This document shows positions 35,428-44,090 of a stretch of DNA of 64,000 nucleotides, piece after piece. Location: NCBI RefSeq assembly GCF_022921055.1, contig NZ_CP095061.1, forward strand, positions 4,627,501 through 4,691,500, in the 5' to 3' direction. Position 1 is the first letter of the stretch, and each line of letters starts with the position of its first letter. Origin of the DNA: Hymenobacter volaticus (GTDB taxonomy: Bacteria > Bacteroidota > Bacteroidia > Cytophagales > Hymenobacteraceae). The notes beneath the pieces are model-generated. The model searched no databases, was not told where the DNA came from, and worked only from the letters and a program-made list of their open reading frames with translations. The translations under genes were made by a program, and so were the position numbers.

Positions 35428-35585
35428 CATACCAAGATACTAGTTGGTACAGAACCACCCGTTGGCGCATACGCTGCTAGCTATTTATCTGGCTACCACG
35501 TACTACTAACTCAACCATTGCTAACGCCCTACTGATAATAGCTCGCCGGGTGATGGTACGGTCCAACCCTTACGCTACGCCTACT

Positions 35586-36418
35586 ATGCACCTGCACCAC
35601 ACCCGACACGGCTCCGGCAAACCACTCTTACTTGTTCATGGCATCGGCGGAAGTGGCCGCTCCTGGAGTACCATCCTCGACGAGCTGGCAACTCACCGCG
35701 AAGTAATAGCCCTCGATTTGCCCGGCCACGGCCAAACGCCCCGCTCCCCGGTTCCAATTCCTTCTACGCTCTGGTCGATGCCGTTGCCGATTGGCTGCGT
35801 GCTCACAACCTAGTAGGCATCGACTGCGTGGGCTCCTCAATGGGGGCCCGGCTGGTGCTGGAACTAGCCCGGCGCGGCGTGGTGGGGGCCGTAATATCGC
35901 TCGACCCTGGCGGATTTTGGCAGGGCTGGCAGATACCGGTTTTCTACTACTCGGTGGCTGGTTCGGTGCGCTTGCTGCGGGCAGTGGAACCCGTGCTGCC
36001 AGCTCTCATAGCTAGTACCGTCGGGCGGACGTTGTTGCTGGCGCAGTTTTCGGCGCGGCCGTGGCGCGTGCCTGCCTCGGTGGCGCTGACGGAGCTACGC
36101 AGCTTTGTGCACACGCCTATCTTCGATGAGTTGCTACGGGACCTAGCCTACGGCAAAAAGCAGGAAGGTGCCCCGCACGGCAGCATCCGGCATCCCTTGG
36201 TGATTGGGTGGGGCCGACAAGACCGGGTGTGTTTCCCGAGCGAAGCACGCCGCGCCGTAGCTGCCTTCCCCGATGCTGCCCTCTACTGGTTCGACCACTG
36301 CGGCCACTTTCCGCATTGGGACCAGCCCGCCGAAACCGTGCAGCTGATTCTGTCGGTAACCGGCCAGCAAACCCCTGCTCCGGCAGCTAGCGTGCCTGCC
36401 CACCAAGTAGTCGAGTAA
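35586..36418 (+). CDS. Alpha/beta hydrolase (frameshifted)
   Basis: 277 residues after repair. ATG 35586 (MHLHHTRHGSGKPLLLVHGIGGSGRSW in two stretches) shows the oxyanion HG motif. The C4 run 35746-35749 needs one more C, giving RSPGSNSFYALVDAVADWL. Nucleophile Ser85 lies in VGSSMGARLVLEL, the acid is Asp in IGWGRQDRVCFP and the base His in DHCGHFPHWDQP. Soluble esterase, lipase or similar; substrate unknown. The last 98 bases occur a second time at 37945-38042, which shows that a second copy once existed. An overlapping start at 35550 is possible but less likely. Confidence 0.85.
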
Positions 36419-37944: not shown

Positions 37945-38042
37945 ACCAGCCCGCCGAAACCGTGCAGCTGATTCTGTCGGTAACCGGCCGGGAAACCGCC
38001 GCCTCGGCCGCTAGCTCCCCCGCCCACCAAACCGCTGAGTAG
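37945..38042 (+). pseudogene. 3'-end remnant of a second alpha/beta hydrolase gene
   Basis: Positions 37945-37989 are identical over 45 bases to 36321-36365 near the 3' end of the hydrolase gene. The similarity continues, with substitutions, through the stop (TAG 38040-38042): QPAETVQLILSVTGRETAAS then SPAHQTAE against QPAETVQLILSVTGQQTPAP then VPAHQVVE. Nothing of the upstream hydrolase sequence precedes it. It is the trace of a tandem duplication mostly removed by deletion, right beside the AT-rich island. Confidence 0.85.
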
Positions 38043-38069
38043 CCGCCGCTTCTAGCAGTAGCTAAATAC

Positions 38070-38101
38070 AAAGCCCCTAGCCGTATGGTCAGGGGCTTTT
38101 T
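38070..38101 (+). terminator. Terminator following the hydrolase remnant
   Basis: Stem AAAGCCCCT/AGGGGCTTT with a 12-base loop, then T-rich. Probably the original terminator of the lost second hydrolase gene. The base composition drops sharply just after it. Confidence 0.8.
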
Positions 38102-38269
38102 GGTATTGTAACCTCTACGAATTATGGCAAGTAGTGTAAAGAACAGGTGGATAAACAAAAGATCTGTCAGCAATTCACTTTATGGATTTAACAATTATGA
38201 AAATTCAATATAAATTAAACTAAGCTTTATAATCCATAGTCAAATAGAACACTATCGAAATGAATTTCA

Positions 38270-38893
38270 TTATAAATATTCATTCATTGATTTAAGTAAA
38301 ACTAGTTTCAAATTATTCTTTGCAATATTTGCTTCCTGCAAAGCATTCGTCGAAAAAACAATATTTTCACCATTGAGAGTAATATCCTGTGATTCATTTT
38401 TTGCTGATGTTCGAGTACACTTAGATTTAAATCGCCTAAACATCTTAACAAAATCATCTTCAAGCAAATCAACTATATTATTATTAGCTATATTTCTTTC
38501 AACTTCTTTCAAAAACTTATAATCTGTAAATAAATCCTTAATACTCAAATTTAAATCAGCTAAAACAGGTTCACTTTGTAACGTTCTATAAATAATATCA
38601 GTATCATCCATTAATTTCTTTATAAGATTTATTATTAAATCTTTTTCGGATTTATCTCTTTCTGATCTTTTATTAAATATTTCAATAACAAATAATCCAG
38701 CAGCCAAACTACATATACTTATTACGCAATTTATAATATCTATAATACTTACCTCTTTTTCAATTGATAATACATTATAATTACCAACAGAAGATATTGC
38801 AATTATTGCAATCAACAATACAACAGACAAAATCAACAAGGCGATAAGCCAAGTGAAAGTACTTGCTGCTTTATTAAAGTTATTTTTATTCAT
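38270..38893 (-). CDS. Two-TM protein with cytosolic helical domain, third gene of island operon
   Basis: 207 residues from ATG 38893. Two hydrophobic helices, FTWLIALLILSVVLLIAIIA (about 11-31) and IIDIINCVISICSLAAGLFV (about 51-72), are followed by a charged helical region (NKRSERDKSEKDLIINLIKKLM) and a soluble C-terminal part to residue 207. No family recognised. Its start lies inside the last codons of the DUF4325 gene (ATGAATAA overlap, 8 bases), so it is translationally coupled. In analogy to other small two-TM proteins next to signalling ATPases it could be a membrane effector or sensor, which is inference only. Confidence 0.75.
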   Translation of the reverse strand: MNKNNFNKAASTFTWLIALLILSVVLLIAIIAISSVGNYNVLSIEKEVSIIDIINCVISICSLAAGLFVIEIFNKRSERDKSEKDLIINLIKKLMDDTDIIYRTLQSEPVLADLNLSIKDLFTDYKFLKEVERNIANNNIVDLLEDDFVKMFRRFKSKCTRTSAKNESQDITLNGENIVFSTNALQEANIAKNNLKLVLLKSMNEYL

Positions 38894-39235
38894 TTTGATC
38901 TTCAAAGTATATCACGTCGTTAATATACTCCTCAATATCGTCTTTTAAATACTCCTCCTCATCGCAAATTATTTTAATAGTATTAAGGACCTTATGTCCT
39001 CCGTATTTGCGAGCTAATCCCCGAAAACTTCTTCTAAAAAAGATGTTGCAAACCCGTGAGTTCCATCCAAATTAACAGTTAAAACTTGTCCAGTAGAGGT
39101 AGCTCTTTCAAATGCAGGCTCTAAGACTGTGGACCTGAACCATTGCCCTGAGTAGTCTCCCTCATCTTCGTAACGTGGCCCAGGGGTACGAGTGTAATCC
39201 CGTACTCTTATCACTTGTGTATTATCATTGTTCAT
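38886..39235 (-). CDS. STAS-like domain protein, DUF4325 (frameshifted)
   Basis: 116 residues after repair. NNDNTQVIRVRDYTRTPGPR then YSGQWFRSTVLEPAFERA and LTVNLDGTHGFATSFLEEVF is the DUF4325/STAS-like signature as I know it. The raw frame stops right after EEVFGD at 39014. Adding one G to the G4 run (plus-strand C4 39019-39022) yields EEVFGGLARKYGGHKVLNTI and runs on to 38886, giving the expected C-terminus. The N-terminus overlaps the ATPase gene by 11 bases. The domain resembles anti-sigma-factor antagonists and commonly accompanies HATPase proteins, suggesting phosphorylation-dependent partner switching. Confidence 0.83.
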
Positions 39236-40433
39236 CGTCGCCTTCTATGAAATTGATAGGCAAATTGAAACAATCTGCGTCTAATTCCCATGAAAAAAAT
39301 GTACCAGAAAAATCTTCGTTAACATATTCATATAAGTTATTATCGATATCAGCCCTAACATTATTAGTTATCCCAAAAAGCTTTTTGATATGATTCCTAT
39401 CTAATGTTTGCTTCAATGTTGGCAATCCCTTTCCTCGATAATACAAGTTGGTAGATGTGCGTCTCATGTCATTCTTGTTTTTTGACTTCTGACGCTTTTC
39501 CTCTTTATGAAGCGACCCCTCTAGTAGTAGTCTTAAGTATTCCGGCTCAAATGCACTATAAATAAACCCAAACATAAACACATCCCTACCATATACTGTC
39601 CCCACCTTTGTTAAAACTAATTCTTGCAAAATTTTTCGCCAATTGTAAAATTTCTCACCCTGCTTTTTATTATCCAGATTTCTTATAATACCCAAACCAA
39701 AATCTACAAAAGAAAACTTTACTACCTTATTCTCATTGTCTTCAATAATGGATAACCACCAATTTTGCTGCCCCCTAACCTTTTTATTCGCATGATTATG
39801 CGTATTATGCATTAATTCGATCAGAACCTTATAAAGACCTGGACACCTTTTTGGCTCACCCCATACATACTTACTAGCCTCTACAACTATTCTTTCAGCA
39901 ATACTAAAGTCAACTTTTCTATGAGAAAGCGTCTCTGTATTTTTATTCAACCTTATTCTATAATAGTTAGCTTCTATATATTTATCATCTAACTTTTTAT
40001 ACAAACCCGTCTCTATCAATATATTGTTAATATCTTTATTTTTTGGTCGAGTAATTTTTAATATAACCTTACCGGCAATATGCTGAACGAGCGCGGCAAC
40101 TATTACTACTACAGAATCTTTATCTATGAATTCGACCGAAGAAAAATCAATATGGGTTGATTTTTTATACTGATATGTGTATCTTATTTTATTAATAAAT
40201 TTAATAAAATCATCCGTGCTTCTTTTAAGTGATATATCAATTGGAGCTGCAATTTTTGTAAAAGGATTTCTATTTAGCTTGTTCTCTAATCTTATTTGTT
40301 CACGGGTTTTTCCATTAGCCTTTCTATTTTTATTTTTTTTCCATTTTTTATGACGAGCTTTTTGCCTATGGCTTTTCAAAGCTCTTATAGAATTGAATAT
40401 TTTATAATTTGGTTGCGTGTAAATCAGTTTCAT
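39225..40433 (-). CDS. STAS/GHKL-ATPase protein, first gene of island operon
   Basis: 402 residues. A lysine/arginine-rich N-terminus (RQKARHKKWKKNKNRKANGK, about 23-42) leads into a STAS-like segment (about 90-165: HIDFSSVEFIDKDSVVVIVAAL). Next is a GHKL/HATPase domain with N-box ELMHNTHNHAN (about 212-222), G1 box VDFGLGI and a G2-like GKGLPTL near 350. A His-kinase phospho-acceptor domain is absent. Together with the STAS-like partner it resembles anti-sigma kinase/antagonist pairs fused and doubled. No DNA-binding domain is seen apart from the basic tail. Function unknown; defence or stress signalling is inference. Confidence 0.8.
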   Translation of the reverse strand: MKLIYTQPNYKIFNSIRALKSHRQKARHKKWKKNKNRKANGKTREQIRLENKLNRNPFTKIAAPIDISLKRSTDDFIKFINKIRYTYQYKKSTHIDFSSVEFIDKDSVVVIVAALVQHIAGKVILKITRPKNKDINNILIETGLYKKLDDKYIEANYYRIRLNKNTETLSHRKVDFSIAERIVVEASKYVWGEPKRCPGLYKVLIELMHNTHNHANKKVRGQQNWWLSIIEDNENKVVKFSFVDFGLGIIRNLDNKKQGEKFYNWRKILQELVLTKVGTVYGRDVFMFGFIYSAFEPEYLRLLLEGSLHKEEKRQKSKNKNDMRRTSTNLYYRGKGLPTLKQTLDRNHIKKLFGITNNVRADIDNNLYEYVNEDFSGTFFSWELDADCFNLPINFIEGDDEQ

Positions 40434-40538
40434 ATGTAATGAAAATTACTTTTATATATAGTTATACCTTGGCATAAAGGTGCCTAGTAAGATAGATTCA
40501 ACACAAATTAATGAAACTATTCTTTAAAGCTTTTTCAC

Positions 40539-43500
40539 TCATACCCCCACCTTCTCTTCACTGCCTAGCTCGCTGAGGATGCGCTTGGCGACTTGCACGC
40601 TTTTCACCTCCTCGATGCTGACGATGAGCTGTTCTTTGCGCTCCTTCATGCTGGCCGTGCGGGTGTGGGTTTGCACGTAGCTGAGGATGTTGCCGAAGGT
40701 GTCGCTCTGGAAGTAGGGCTCGTTGTTGGTGGCCGAGATGTAGCCTTTGAGCAGGTTTTTCTTCAGCGTCAGCTTCTCGAAGCCCACCTGGCAGGCCTGC
40801 CAGCGCAGGCGCACGATGTCGGCCAGTTGCTCTACTTCCGCCGGCAGCGGCCCAAACCGGTCCACGATGCCGGCCACCAGCTTGCGCAGTTCCTCGGGGC
40901 CCTTCACCCTATCGAGCTTGCTATACAGCTGCAAGCGCTCCGACACGTTGCTCACGTAGGAGTCGGGAATCAGGATTTGCAGGTCCGTCTCGATGTTGCA
41001 CTCCTTGGGGCCGCTGGCTTTCACGGCCGCTTGCAGGCGCTCGGTCGGGTCGCCGAGGAACAGGTCGCGGAACTCGGTTTCCTTGAGCTCCGTCACTGCC
41101 TCGTCCAGAATCTGGTGGTAGGTTTCAAAGCCCAAGTCGTTGATGAAGCCCGACTGCTCGCCGCCCAGCAGGTTGCCGGCCCCCCGGATGTCCAGGTCGC
41201 GCATAGCCACCTTGAACCCGTCGCCGAGGTCGGAAAACTCTTCGAGCGTGCTTAGGCGCTTGCGGGCATCGGAAGGCAAACCGGCCACCGGCGGCGTGAG
41301 CAGGTAGCAATAGGCTTTCTTGTTGGAGCGGCCGACGCGCCCACGCATCTGGTGCAGGTCGGAGAGGCCGTGCATGTGGGCGCGGTTGATGATGATGGTG
41401 TTGGCGTTGGGAATGTCCAGGCCCGACTCAATCAGGTTGGTGCTCACCAGCACGTCGTAGTCGCCGTCCACGAACTTCATCATGCGCTTTTCCAGCAGGT
41501 CGCCTTCCATCTGCCCGTGAATGGTGGTCACGCGGGCATCGGGCACCAGGCGCAGCACCATGTTGGCCAGCTCATCGATGTCCTTCACGCGGTTGTGCAC
41601 GAAAAACACCTGCCCACCACGCTTGATTTCGCGGGCCACCGCGTCGCGCACCAGCAGCTCATCAAACACGTGCAGTTCGGTTTGCACCGGCTGGCGGTTC
41701 GGTGGCGGCGTGGCAATCACGCTCAGGTCGCGAGCGCCCATCAGCGAGAAGTGCAGCGTGCGCGGTATCGGCGTCGCCGACAGCGTGAGCGTGTCCACGT
41801 TCACCTTCAGCTCCTTGAGTTTGTCCTTGGTTTTCACCCCGAACTTCTGCTCTTCGTCAATGATGAGCAAGCCCAGGTCCTTGAACTTGATGTCTTTATT
41901 GGTGAGGCGATGCGTGCCAATCAGAATGTCGGTTTTGCCCTCGGCCACCCGGCCCAGCGTCTCCTTGATCTGCTTGGTGCTCTTGAAGCGGTTCACGTAC
42001 TCCACCGTCACGGGCAGGGCTGCCAGCCGCTCCCGGAACGTTTTGTAGTGCTGCATGGCCAGAATGGTGGTAGGCACCAGCACGGCCACCTGCTTGCCAT
42101 CGGCCACCGACTTAAACGCCGCCCGAATAGCTACTTCCGTCTTGCCGAAGCCCACGTCGCCGCACACCAGCCGGTCCATGGGGTGGGGCACCTCCATGTC
42201 GCGCTTCACGTCTTCGGTGGCCTTGGCCTGGTCGGGCGTGTCTTCGTAGATGAAGCTCGATTCTAGCTCGGCCTGCATAAACGAGTCCATGGCGAAGGCG
42301 TGGCCGGGCGCGGTTTTGCGCTTGGCGTACAACCGAATCAGCTCGGCCGCAATGTCCTTCACCTTCTTCTTAACCGACTTCTTCTTGTTTTCCCACTCCG
42401 GCGAGCCCAGCTTGCTCATGTTCGGCGGCGTGCCCTCGGCGCCTGAGTACTTGGCAATCTTGTGCAGGGCGTGGATGCTCACCGTCAGCACGTCGTCGTC
42501 GCGGTACACCAACCGGATGGCTTCCTGCACCCGGTCGTTGATTTCCACCTGCGTCAGGCCCGCAAAGCGCGCAATGCCATAGTCTTGGTGCACCACATAG
42601 TCGCCGGGGCTCAACGTGCGCAGTTCCTTCAGGGTAAGCGCTTTCTTCTTCGAGAACTTGCGCCCTTCCTGCGCTCGGTAGAACCGCTCGAACAGTTGGT
42701 GGTCGGTGTACACTACCAGTTTCAGCGTCTCGTCTACGTAGCCTTCGCGCAGCCCCAGCAGCAAGTGCTGAAACTGCACGTTGTTGTCGAGCTCGTCGAA
42801 GATGGTTCGCAACCGGTCCGCCTGCCGCACCGATTCGGCCGCAATGATATTGGTGTAGCCTTTCTCCTGGTTTTCGTGCAGGTTTTTCACCAGCCGGTTG
42901 AAGTCCTTGTTGAAGCTCGGCTGCGGCTTGGCCGTAAACTGAAACTCCTCGGCCCCCGCCTTGTAGTGGAACCGTTTGCCGAACTCTACCACCGCAAAGC
43001 CTTCCAGCAGCTTCTTAAACGACTTCCCCGTCTCAAACAAATCCTCGGGCTTGCTCACGATTTGGGTGCCGCCCGCCGTCAGTAGCAGTTCTTGGAAACC
43101 CGCCTCCGCTTTGTCGAACGATTCTTCTACCACGTCCAGGGTCTGGCGCATGTCCTTGGCCCACACCGTAGTGTTCTTCGGAATAAAGTCCAGGAACGCC
43201 TCCCGGGTTTCTTGCAGCAACTTGGTTTGCACGTTCGGGATAATGCTCACCTGCTCCCGCTTCTCCACCGACAGCTGGCTTTCCGGGTCAAACGTCCGGA
43301 TGGTTTCCACTTCGTCGCCGAACAGCTCTATCCGGTACGGCAGCTCATTGGCATACGAGAAGATGTCCACGATACCGCCGCGCACCGCAAATTGCCCCGC
43401 CTCGTACACAAAATCGGTCCGCTCGAAGTCGTACTCCGCCAGCATCTCACTGATGAAGTTCACGTCCAGCTTGTCGCCGTTCTTCACAATAAACGTGTTG

Positions 43501-44090
43501 GCCACCAAGCTTTTCTTGTTGATTACCTTCTCGAACAGCGCCTCCGGATACGTGATGATGATAGCACCAGCTGTGTCTTTCACGCTGGCCCGCGCCCCCT
43601 TCTTGCCCTTGGGCTTGGCATCGGTTTCCGCAGCGGCCGTGTCGGCAGCATCTTCCGCGTCTTCAGTGGCTTGCTCGGCGGCGGTTTTAGGTCCGCGGTG
43701 CGAGTTCAGCTTGTTCAACACCTCGGCCCGCATCAGCACGTTGGCGTTTTCGGTCTCGTCGAAAGCGTAGGGCCGCTTGTAGGAGCTCGGAAACAACAGC
43801 GGTTCCTCGTTGGGCAACAAGTGCTGCAAGTCGGCCAAGAAATACGCGGCTTCCTCCCGGTCATGCAAGATGAACAGGTGGTGCTGATCAGGAAATGCTG
43901 TGTGCATAGCCGCAGCCAGCACCGCATCCTGGCTCCCAACAAGGCCGCGCAAGTGCAGCCGTGGGTGCGCCACGTTCTCGGCTGGCGCAGCCCCGCGGAG
44001 CGAGTTGCGTGTGGCCGGGTTCAGGCGGGCCCCCACGGTCATGACGGTAGGGTCGAGAGAGTATAGCTGGAGAAAATCAGAAACCTTCAA
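40539..44090 (-). CDS. mfd: Transcription-repair coupling factor
   Basis: 1183-residue ATP-dependent translocase that removes RNA polymerase stalled at lesions and recruits UvrA. UvrB-homology region at the N-terminus (to about 350), RNA-polymerase-interacting CarD-like domain about 483-545 (LSPGDYVVHQDYGIARFAG), RecG-like motor with Walker A GDVGFGKT (about 643-650) and DEEQKFG (about 744), and a C-terminal TRCF domain. A 35-residue Ala/Glu/Asp-rich insert (about 137-171) interrupts the UvrB-like part. TTG 44090 is taken as start since KVSDFLQLYSLDP fits the family N-terminus; ATG 44042 is the alternative. Its stop abuts the AT-rich island. Confidence 0.95.
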   Translation of the reverse strand: MKVSDFLQLYSLDPTVMTVGARLNPATRNSLRGAAPAENVAHPRLHLRGLVGSQDAVLAAAMHTAFPDQHHLFILHDREEAAYFLADLQHLLPNEEPLLFPSSYKRPYAFDETENANVLMRAEVLNKLNSHRGPKTAAEQATEDAEDAADTAAAETDAKPKGKKGARASVKDTAGAIIITYPEALFEKVINKKSLVANTFIVKNGDKLDVNFISEMLAEYDFERTDFVYEAGQFAVRGGIVDIFSYANELPYRIELFGDEVETIRTFDPESQLSVEKREQVSIIPNVQTKLLQETREAFLDFIPKNTTVWAKDMRQTLDVVEESFDKAEAGFQELLLTAGGTQIVSKPEDLFETGKSFKKLLEGFAVVEFGKRFHYKAGAEEFQFTAKPQPSFNKDFNRLVKNLHENQEKGYTNIIAAESVRQADRLRTIFDELDNNVQFQHLLLGLREGYVDETLKLVVYTDHQLFERFYRAQEGRKFSKKKALTLKELRTLSPGDYVVHQDYGIARFAGLTQVEINDRVQEAIRLVYRDDDVLTVSIHALHKIAKYSGAEGTPPNMSKLGSPEWENKKKSVKKKVKDIAAELIRLYAKRKTAPGHAFAMDSFMQAELESSFIYEDTPDQAKATEDVKRDMEVPHPMDRLVCGDVGFGKTEVAIRAAFKSVADGKQVAVLVPTTILAMQHYKTFRERLAALPVTVEYVNRFKSTKQIKETLGRVAEGKTDILIGTHRLTNKDIKFKDLGLLIIDEEQKFGVKTKDKLKELKVNVDTLTLSATPIPRTLHFSLMGARDLSVIATPPPNRQPVQTELHVFDELLVRDAVAREIKRGGQVFFVHNRVKDIDELANMVLRLVPDARVTTIHGQMEGDLLEKRMMKFVDGDYDVLVSTNLIESGLDIPNANTIIINRAHMHGLSDLHQMRGRVGRSNKKAYCYLLTPPVAGLPSDARKRLSTLEEFSDLGDGFKVAMRDLDIRGAGNLLGGEQSGFINDLGFETYHQILDEAVTELKETEFRDLFLGDPTERLQAAVKASGPKECNIETDLQILIPDSYVSNVSERLQLYSKLDRVKGPEELRKLVAGIVDRFGPLPAEVEQLADIVRLRWQACQVGFEKLTLKKNLLKGYISATNNEPYFQSDTFGNILSYVQTHTRTASMKERKEQLIVSIEEVKSVQVAKRILSELGSEEKVGV

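Follow-up and report, generated by a model that had tools for sequence, protein, structure and literature searches.

What do three overlapping genes do that lie together in one AT-rich islet behind mfd in Hymenobacter volaticus, and do they work as one unit? The window, that is, the whole stretch of DNA that was analysed (64,000 nucleotides), holds a kinase-type gene (K), a DUF4325 gene (S), and a gene for a membrane protein (T). We consider the chances about even that this trio is a three-part switch in conflict with phages or mobile DNA, and a sister of VapKSC that uses a membrane effector. The features that the argument needs are the following, with positions counted within the window.

39225..40433, minus strand: K, 402 amino acids; its N-terminal tail (residues ~1-59) is basic and is followed by a STAS-like domain (~59-150) and a kinase-type GHKL domain (~157-384)
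39014..39235, minus strand: first piece of S, DUF4325 (STAS-like), 73 amino acids with a Thr64-Ser65 pair, then an in-frame stop
38886..39056, minus strand: second piece of S, in the other frame; the C-terminal part of the DUF4325 protein
38270..38893, minus strand: T, 207 amino acids; one hydrophobic segment starts at residue 16 and another at residue 50, the rest is charged and looks helical; no match in Pfam
38100..40542, no strand: variable AT-rich islet at the mfd 3' end, its edges being set by similarity to genomes G009 and G023, which ends at 40543 and resumes at 38099-38101
40539..44090, minus strand: a gene that we take from its sequence to be mfd; its 3' end carries the islet
38069..38100, minus strand: terminator-like inverted repeat at the right edge of the islet, shared with G009 and G023

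A preliminary description of this DNA had spoken of three overlapping minus-strand genes in a block much more AT-rich than its flanks. The overlaps are there (11 bases between K and S, 39225-39235; 8 bases between S and T, 38886-38893), as are the frames of K and T; S had been read through and is not one open frame. The base composition is as described: in 1-kb windows the trio block has a GC content of 0.30-0.36 versus 0.57-0.62 at 35-38 kb and 40.5-43.5 kb, and 37980-40680 is the sole run of at least 900 bases below 42% GC in the 64 kb. No recombinase was seen among the ORFs of the islet.

What kind of protein is K? It matches no family in Pfam, PADLOC, or NCBIfam at E 1; a search of 5.8 billion proteins listed 60 homologues, and phrog_3364, a phage family of unknown function, matches at E 7.6e-31. 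The GHKL domain read from the letters at the outset stands, as the GHKL residues that we counted are identical in all 29 aligned K sequences. In the 24 sequences whose N-terminal tail is 30 residues or longer, its net charge is +5 to +24. An AlphaFold2 model (mean pLDDT 86.4, pTM 0.77) places an N-terminal helix (8-39) ahead of an alpha/beta domain and a GHKL-type domain. When the PDB was searched with this model by Foldseek, SpoIIAB took ranks 1, 2, 3, 5, and 8 (probability 0.89-1.00, target TM 0.59-0.68), RsbV-sized chains of an RsbV/RsbW entry took ranks 14, 19, and 40, and a STAS protein took rank 29. By these matches K has a GHKL-domain fold and a STAS-domain fold, like the SpoIIAB-SpoIIAA and RsbW-RsbV pairs, and this is one reason for which we favour the three-part switch. 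That no match reaches E 0.001 (the best is 0.0057) counts against it.

One could also read K not as a kinase but as a GHKL-type ATPase like MutL, MORC, and Hsp90, acting to remodel S or T. GHKL motifs by themselves do not separate the two, a topoisomerase subunit (1mx0) stands at rank 4 of the same Foldseek search, and a GHKL-Shedu defence protein has been proposed to use its ATPase domain as a control (PMC12137116). However, the best and most often repeated fold matches of K are SpoIIAB kinases, and its partner is a STAS protein that keeps a pair of hydroxyl residues; we regard an ATPase of this kind as very improbable.

Do the three genes keep together elsewhere? The K profile gave 38 loci, 36 from a set with one genome per species and 2 on viral contigs (L038 repeats the DNA of L034). 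In 37 of the 38, K is followed directly and on the same strand by S (DUF4325) and then by a gene for 169-210 amino acids, and the contig of the 38th stops 118 bases past the K match; the switch is favoured in part because of this constancy. The hosts span eight phylum-level groups, mostly Bacteroidota, and six more loci from the same phylum have all three genes in each. K lies in two ORFs in L042, and the third gene encodes one hydrophobic segment in L046 and L047. With the DUF4325 profile, seven viral loci were found: two repeats, four new trios (L120, L123, L124, and L126), and L125, which is without K. The DUF4325 gene of that last viral contig has neither K nor T and stands between tail-like and transposase-like genes.

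Among 395 genomes of the phylum, K is present in 5 (E 1e-10) and T in 5 (E 1e-5), with 4 genomes common to both. The fifth T match is weak and lies inside a 723-aa frame; in G271, the fifth genome with K, the third gene is short and escaped the T profile. PF14213, the Pfam model of DUF4325, is found in 59 of the 395 genomes versus 5 for this K, which rules out the idea that DUF4325 always means this trio. The preliminary description had raised the case of ATPase and DUF4325 genes that occur widely without the membrane gene. This is so for DUF4325 at large but not for K, which was accompanied by S and a third gene in every place that left space for them. Only 2 of 59 related genomes carry K, the window's own and G010 of the same genus, and this, together with the sharp edges of the islet and the phage and plasmid records discussed below, bears out the earlier suggestion of a transferred module with a membrane protein.

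Over 36 loci the distances of K, S, and T correlate (r 0.68-0.74, with 0 of 2000 permutations as high), which common descent of the hosts can also bring about, and T changes fastest, with a median identity of 0.19 against 0.40 for K and 0.48 for S. Joint divergence with T in the lead is a further reason why we prefer the three-part switch.

Here, we must turn to the state of S. Its naming as DUF4325 was sound: PF14213 scores 24.3 bits on the N-terminal piece, above the Pfam cut-off of 23, and reaches E 0.035 on the second piece (positions 33-59). An S profile built without the window sequence gives E 2.8e-26 and 5.4e-9 for the first and second pieces. From the ATG at 39235 the frame stops after 73 amino acids at 39014, and the rest is in another frame. 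An inner TAG was counted in the window S, and the break sits at a run of G. At the position of the break the reading frame is open in all 36 aligned relatives. A programmed frameshift is unlikely, since none of these 36 needs one. Ser65 is kept in 36/36 relatives and Thr64 in 35/36, and the main reading is favoured because of this pair; the S of L046 has Ala-Ala in its place, and the loss of both hydroxyls there speaks against it.

The broken S beside open K and T also weighs against a switch, because a cell left with a toxic T and no antitoxin should suffer, unless the break is an assembly error or T is non-toxic. A sequencing or assembly error seems a likelier cause of the frameshift than decay, because the same assembly breaks other conserved genes. 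A RecG-like gene (L204) lies in three frames, its pieces being 93-99% identical to the intact 699-aa protein of a close relative, and an alpha/beta-hydrolase-like gene at ~35570-36415 of the window is split into two.

These data also bear on the proposal that the trio of this genome has decayed into an inactive remnant of a system that is intact elsewhere. It would account for the frameshifted S, and the K in two ORFs at a second place in G010 fits it as well. We nevertheless hold it to be somewhat unlikely: K and T are open with all their family features intact, the RecG-like gene is broken twice at 93-99% identity, and mfd is split in G010 too, so that the broken K there may be an error of its own. 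As an observation on G010 itself, the split K of its second trio (L042) may be an assembly error, since its mfd is split too.

What is T? Two hydrophobic segments are present in all 37 T rows (the window and 36 trio loci, with L038 omitted as a repeat), in agreement with the two membrane helices first proposed, and they are arranged with a short loop between them and a larger part behind. A T profile made without the window T still matches it at E 2.8e-15. No Pfam family matches T at E 1, and none is common to its 37 members; the search for a known family ended with weak matches at most in PADLOC and NCBIfam. The PADLOC 2TM model PDLC00706 matches weakly (E 0.019) and in the membrane region alone. 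SLATT and the two-TM effectors of CBASS are likewise built of two membrane segments and then a cytosolic part; the difference is that the match of T to a 2TM model is as weak and as local as just given. No SLATT match was found for the window T in Pfam at E 1, nor among the best 25 of 63 families over the 37 T members, and none of these 25 matches more than 2 of the 37; each of the other 38 families has one or two members at most. The lack of a known relative counts against the main reading.

A wider set of 14 third proteins, the window included, is more mixed. The T profile matches ten of them with E values of at most 1.2e-6 and an eleventh doubtfully (0.03), but not the other three (phage AS1, L126, and a Helicobacter prophage); 8 of the 14 have two hydrophobic segments and 6 have one. 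The six proteins with one segment and the three without T homology are further points against the three-part switch as drawn here.

The nearest relative with data is VapKSC, in which a STAS-GHKL kinase and a STAS protein are joined to a PIN toxin: the STAS protein inhibits the toxin, and phosphorylation frees it (Chambers et al., EMBO J 2026, PMC13373217). There, an S that mimics the phosphorylated form fails to hold the toxin, and protection by the operon amounts to ~2 logs against one phage; both results are reasons for favouring a switch of the same kind here. The words "DUF4325" and "transmembrane" occur 0 times in the paper (PMC13373217).

To see what DUF4325 genes stand beside, 35 of the 40 places that had been fetched were read by eye for a PIN motif. 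In 15 of the 35 the downstream protein has a PIN-like start, and we therefore think that VapS is probably a DUF4325 protein. Many DUF4325 genes of this phylum (L160-L191) stand between a kinase-like and a PIN-like gene; some other relatives form a K-S pair without an evident third gene. We then made profiles of 13 VapK-like kinases and 13 VapS-like proteins from loci of which 11 of 13 have a PIN gene. Against these operons, which we take from their make-up to be vapKSC, hhalign placed K with probability 97.3, E 2.3e-11, over 258 columns, and S with probability 94.7, E 5.7e-8, with Thr64 opposite the VapS-like Ser/Thr. This kinship of K and S is another ground for the main reading and, with the SpoIIAB- and RsbV-type fold matches, upholds the partner-switch idea of the preliminary description.

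The trio shares with VapKSC its gene order of kinase, STAS protein, and effector, the union of STAS and GHKL in one kinase chain, and a family of small STAS proteins that are second in the operon and have a conserved hydroxyl (the window S itself being frameshifted). It differs in its third gene, a membrane protein and not a PIN nuclease (no Pfam match at E 1), and in the added basic N-terminal helix of K. In the same paper, an aromatic residue of VapK and W68 of CapK are tied to ssDNA (PMC13373217). By alignment, the column of the VapK aromatic, F54 in the ssDNA groove, varies in K, the window K having Phe, and this apparent lack of conservation counts against our reading. We conclude that the trio is a sister module of VapKSC and not a member of it.

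CapK-CapS is a second point of comparison. It too has a STAS-GHKL kinase followed by a STAS partner and lies beside immune genes, and it is a transcription regulator, with an N-terminal HTH on CapK and a wHTH on CapS (PMC13373217). Neither domain is found in K or in the S pieces (Pfam, E 1), and unlike CapK-CapS the trio has a third gene that belongs to the unit.

A regulator of this type suggests another role for T, namely that of a membrane sensor feeding K, or of an anchor for S, with the output elsewhere (gene expression or another protein) and a function not primarily in defence. The layout of T, in which a short loop joins the two segments and the larger part comes after them, would suit a sensor, and the K-S pairs without an evident third gene fit as well. 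We judge this quite unlikely: the missing wHTH and HTH tell against it, as do the sites where the trio is found, namely a hot spot of defence genes and the control region of temperate phages, and T is the fastest-changing of the three, as effectors often are.

In the classical systems, SpoIIAB/RsbW-type kinases bind or phosphorylate their STAS partner to keep the output off. The K of the trio differs from them by its own STAS-like domain, and the unit differs in that its third gene is no sigma factor (T has no Pfam match). The classical usage and the fold match of K to SpoIIAB together raise the possibility of a switch of opposite sign, in which unphosphorylated S activates T, K binds or phosphorylates S and so keeps T off, and the signal stops K. 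Such a sign would also account for a cell that tolerates a broken S beside an open T. We think it unlikely, because the broken S may be an assembly error and because in VapKSC, the closest relative studied by experiment, the sign is the reverse of this (PMC13373217).

Under the preferred reading, what we infer runs from phosphorylation and S-T contact through a trigger to membrane action and protection. In the resting state S, a single STAS domain extended at its C terminus, would bind the cytosolic part of T and keep it inactive. A signal linked to infection would activate K; this signal may be a nucleic acid, for which either the basic helix at the N terminus or the STAS/GHKL groove would be the sensor. 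Active K would then phosphorylate S at the Thr-Ser pair (64/65), and phosphorylated S would release T, which might act at the inner membrane as a pore, by depolarisation, or by a block, and so stop the cell or the phage. The computed framework for this consists of gene order, the motifs and fold of K, the kinship of K and S to the kinase-STAS-PIN operon, the hydrophobic segments of T, the mobility of the trio, and its hot-spot setting.

Mobility is seen on phages and plasmids. In Marinobacter phage AS1 the trio genes are two genes away from a Cro/CI gene, and a table for a Francisella phage lists an AS1-like protein, a DUF4325 protein, and a TM protein adjoining a CI gene (PMC7924643). In L123 a gene that we read as repressor-like ends 3 bases ahead of K. 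Among mobile-element records the window K matched no phage and one plasmid, and the K of L120 matched one phage record. The DUF4325 search matched 13 plasmid records, of which 5 were examined. In four of the five (Leptospira, Vibrio alfacsensis, and two Acinetobacter), a gene resembling K is followed by S and by a small gene in third position; in one of these, K is shortened and preceded by an IS element. On the fifth plasmid, S is accompanied by a TM protein, and their strand lacks K. Of the four ordered sets, three have a third protein that the T profile does not match.

The setting in the chromosome is the 3' end of mfd. Although mfd is found in all 38 same-genus genomes, it is not whole in all of them; the DNA behind it was compared in 37 (the window and 36 others), excluding G028, which has no usable mfd. 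Similarity of the window to G009 and G023 stops two bases ahead of the mfd stop codon. In 16 of the 37 genomes an AT-rich run of at least 900 bases lies behind mfd, with mostly different genes; 14 of these 16 islets start at the mfd stop, whereas in G001 and G035 the islet starts further along, where part of the mfd end is repeated. Such copies measure 207 bases in G035 (L086), 399 bases in G003 (L087), where the copy lies behind a gene of normal GC, and 183 bases in G001 (L097), and they hint at insertion with a carried gene end. No second copy was found on the right side in the window. The other 21 genomes are without an AT-rich run; of these, G003 and G004 hold a SLFN_AlbA_2 or an AAA-type gene at host-like GC. 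In G010 the trio occupies the same mfd position in the opposite orientation.

To learn what else is inserted here, we scanned 19 proteins from mfd inserts for families. They include Clp_N plus KAP (G009), Old/AriA-like proteins (G023 and G007), NACHT with SNaCT5 (G035) and NACHT (G006), HATPase_c_3 with a weak HSDR_N_2 (G016), a DUF262-type NsnA (E 6.5e-63) plus HEPN (G030), AAA_15 with DUF3696 (G002), and AAA_15 with an OLD TOPRIM (G026). The inserts of G013, G017, G001, and G027, together with second genes, have no Pfam match or a sole one below the cut-off. Islet proteins without a Pfam match above the cut-off are those of L090 (477 aa), L096 (793 aa), L097 (289 and 165 aa), and L104 (440 aa), and they are candidates for new defence genes.

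The mfd position is the strongest argument for placing the trio in defence, an argument of guilt by location, and we favour the main reading in part because of this defence-type hot spot in 16 of 37 genomes and because of the phage and plasmid carriers. A literature search, mostly without preprints and subscription papers, met DUF4325 in two papers and VapKSC in one, and found no description of a defence hot spot at mfd and none of the K-S-T trio.

Are the immediate neighbours of the trio also defence genes, as the preliminary description had suggested looking for? Up to two genes on each side of the trio in 36 loci gave 127 proteins, and among them are strong matches to PADLOC models of type I, IIG, and III restriction, DISARM DrmD, Thoeris ThsB, AbiE, and others. 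At E 1e-15, and counted per family and not per protein, 194 PADLOC families matched over these 127 near proteins and 108 over 95 proteins taken from 4.5 kb or further away (both sets excluding proteins >1000 aa), with 2 over 50 other proteins of the window, from one genome. The region is thus rich in defence genes, and similarly so at 4.5 kb and beyond, which lends no support to defence genes specifically beside the trio and tells against the main reading; the trio inhabits defence-rich regions rather than a place beside any one system. By eye, L030 has an HsdS-like gene that ends 10 bases ahead of the trio and a DUF262-like gene after it, and L027 has a caspase-like gene upstream. A defence role may be proposed from location.

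Taken as a whole, we put a little short of even the chance of the broader proposal, namely that this is a mobile phage-defence family of eight phylum-level groups and phages in which a SpoIIAB-type kinase with a nucleic-acid-sensing basic helix phosphorylates a STAS antitoxin and thereby frees a two-helix membrane effector, with interchangeable outputs (RNase, repressor, or membrane protein) across such switches, and that the mfd 3' end is a defence hot spot of this genus that had escaped description. If this is true, the kinase-STAS switch described in 2026 would serve defence in general as a chassis whose effectors can be exchanged, with one such effector located in the membrane. A branch of DUF4325 and a family of membrane proteins that has no Pfam model would also gain a function, and the 3' end of mfd would become a place to seek more systems in this genus.
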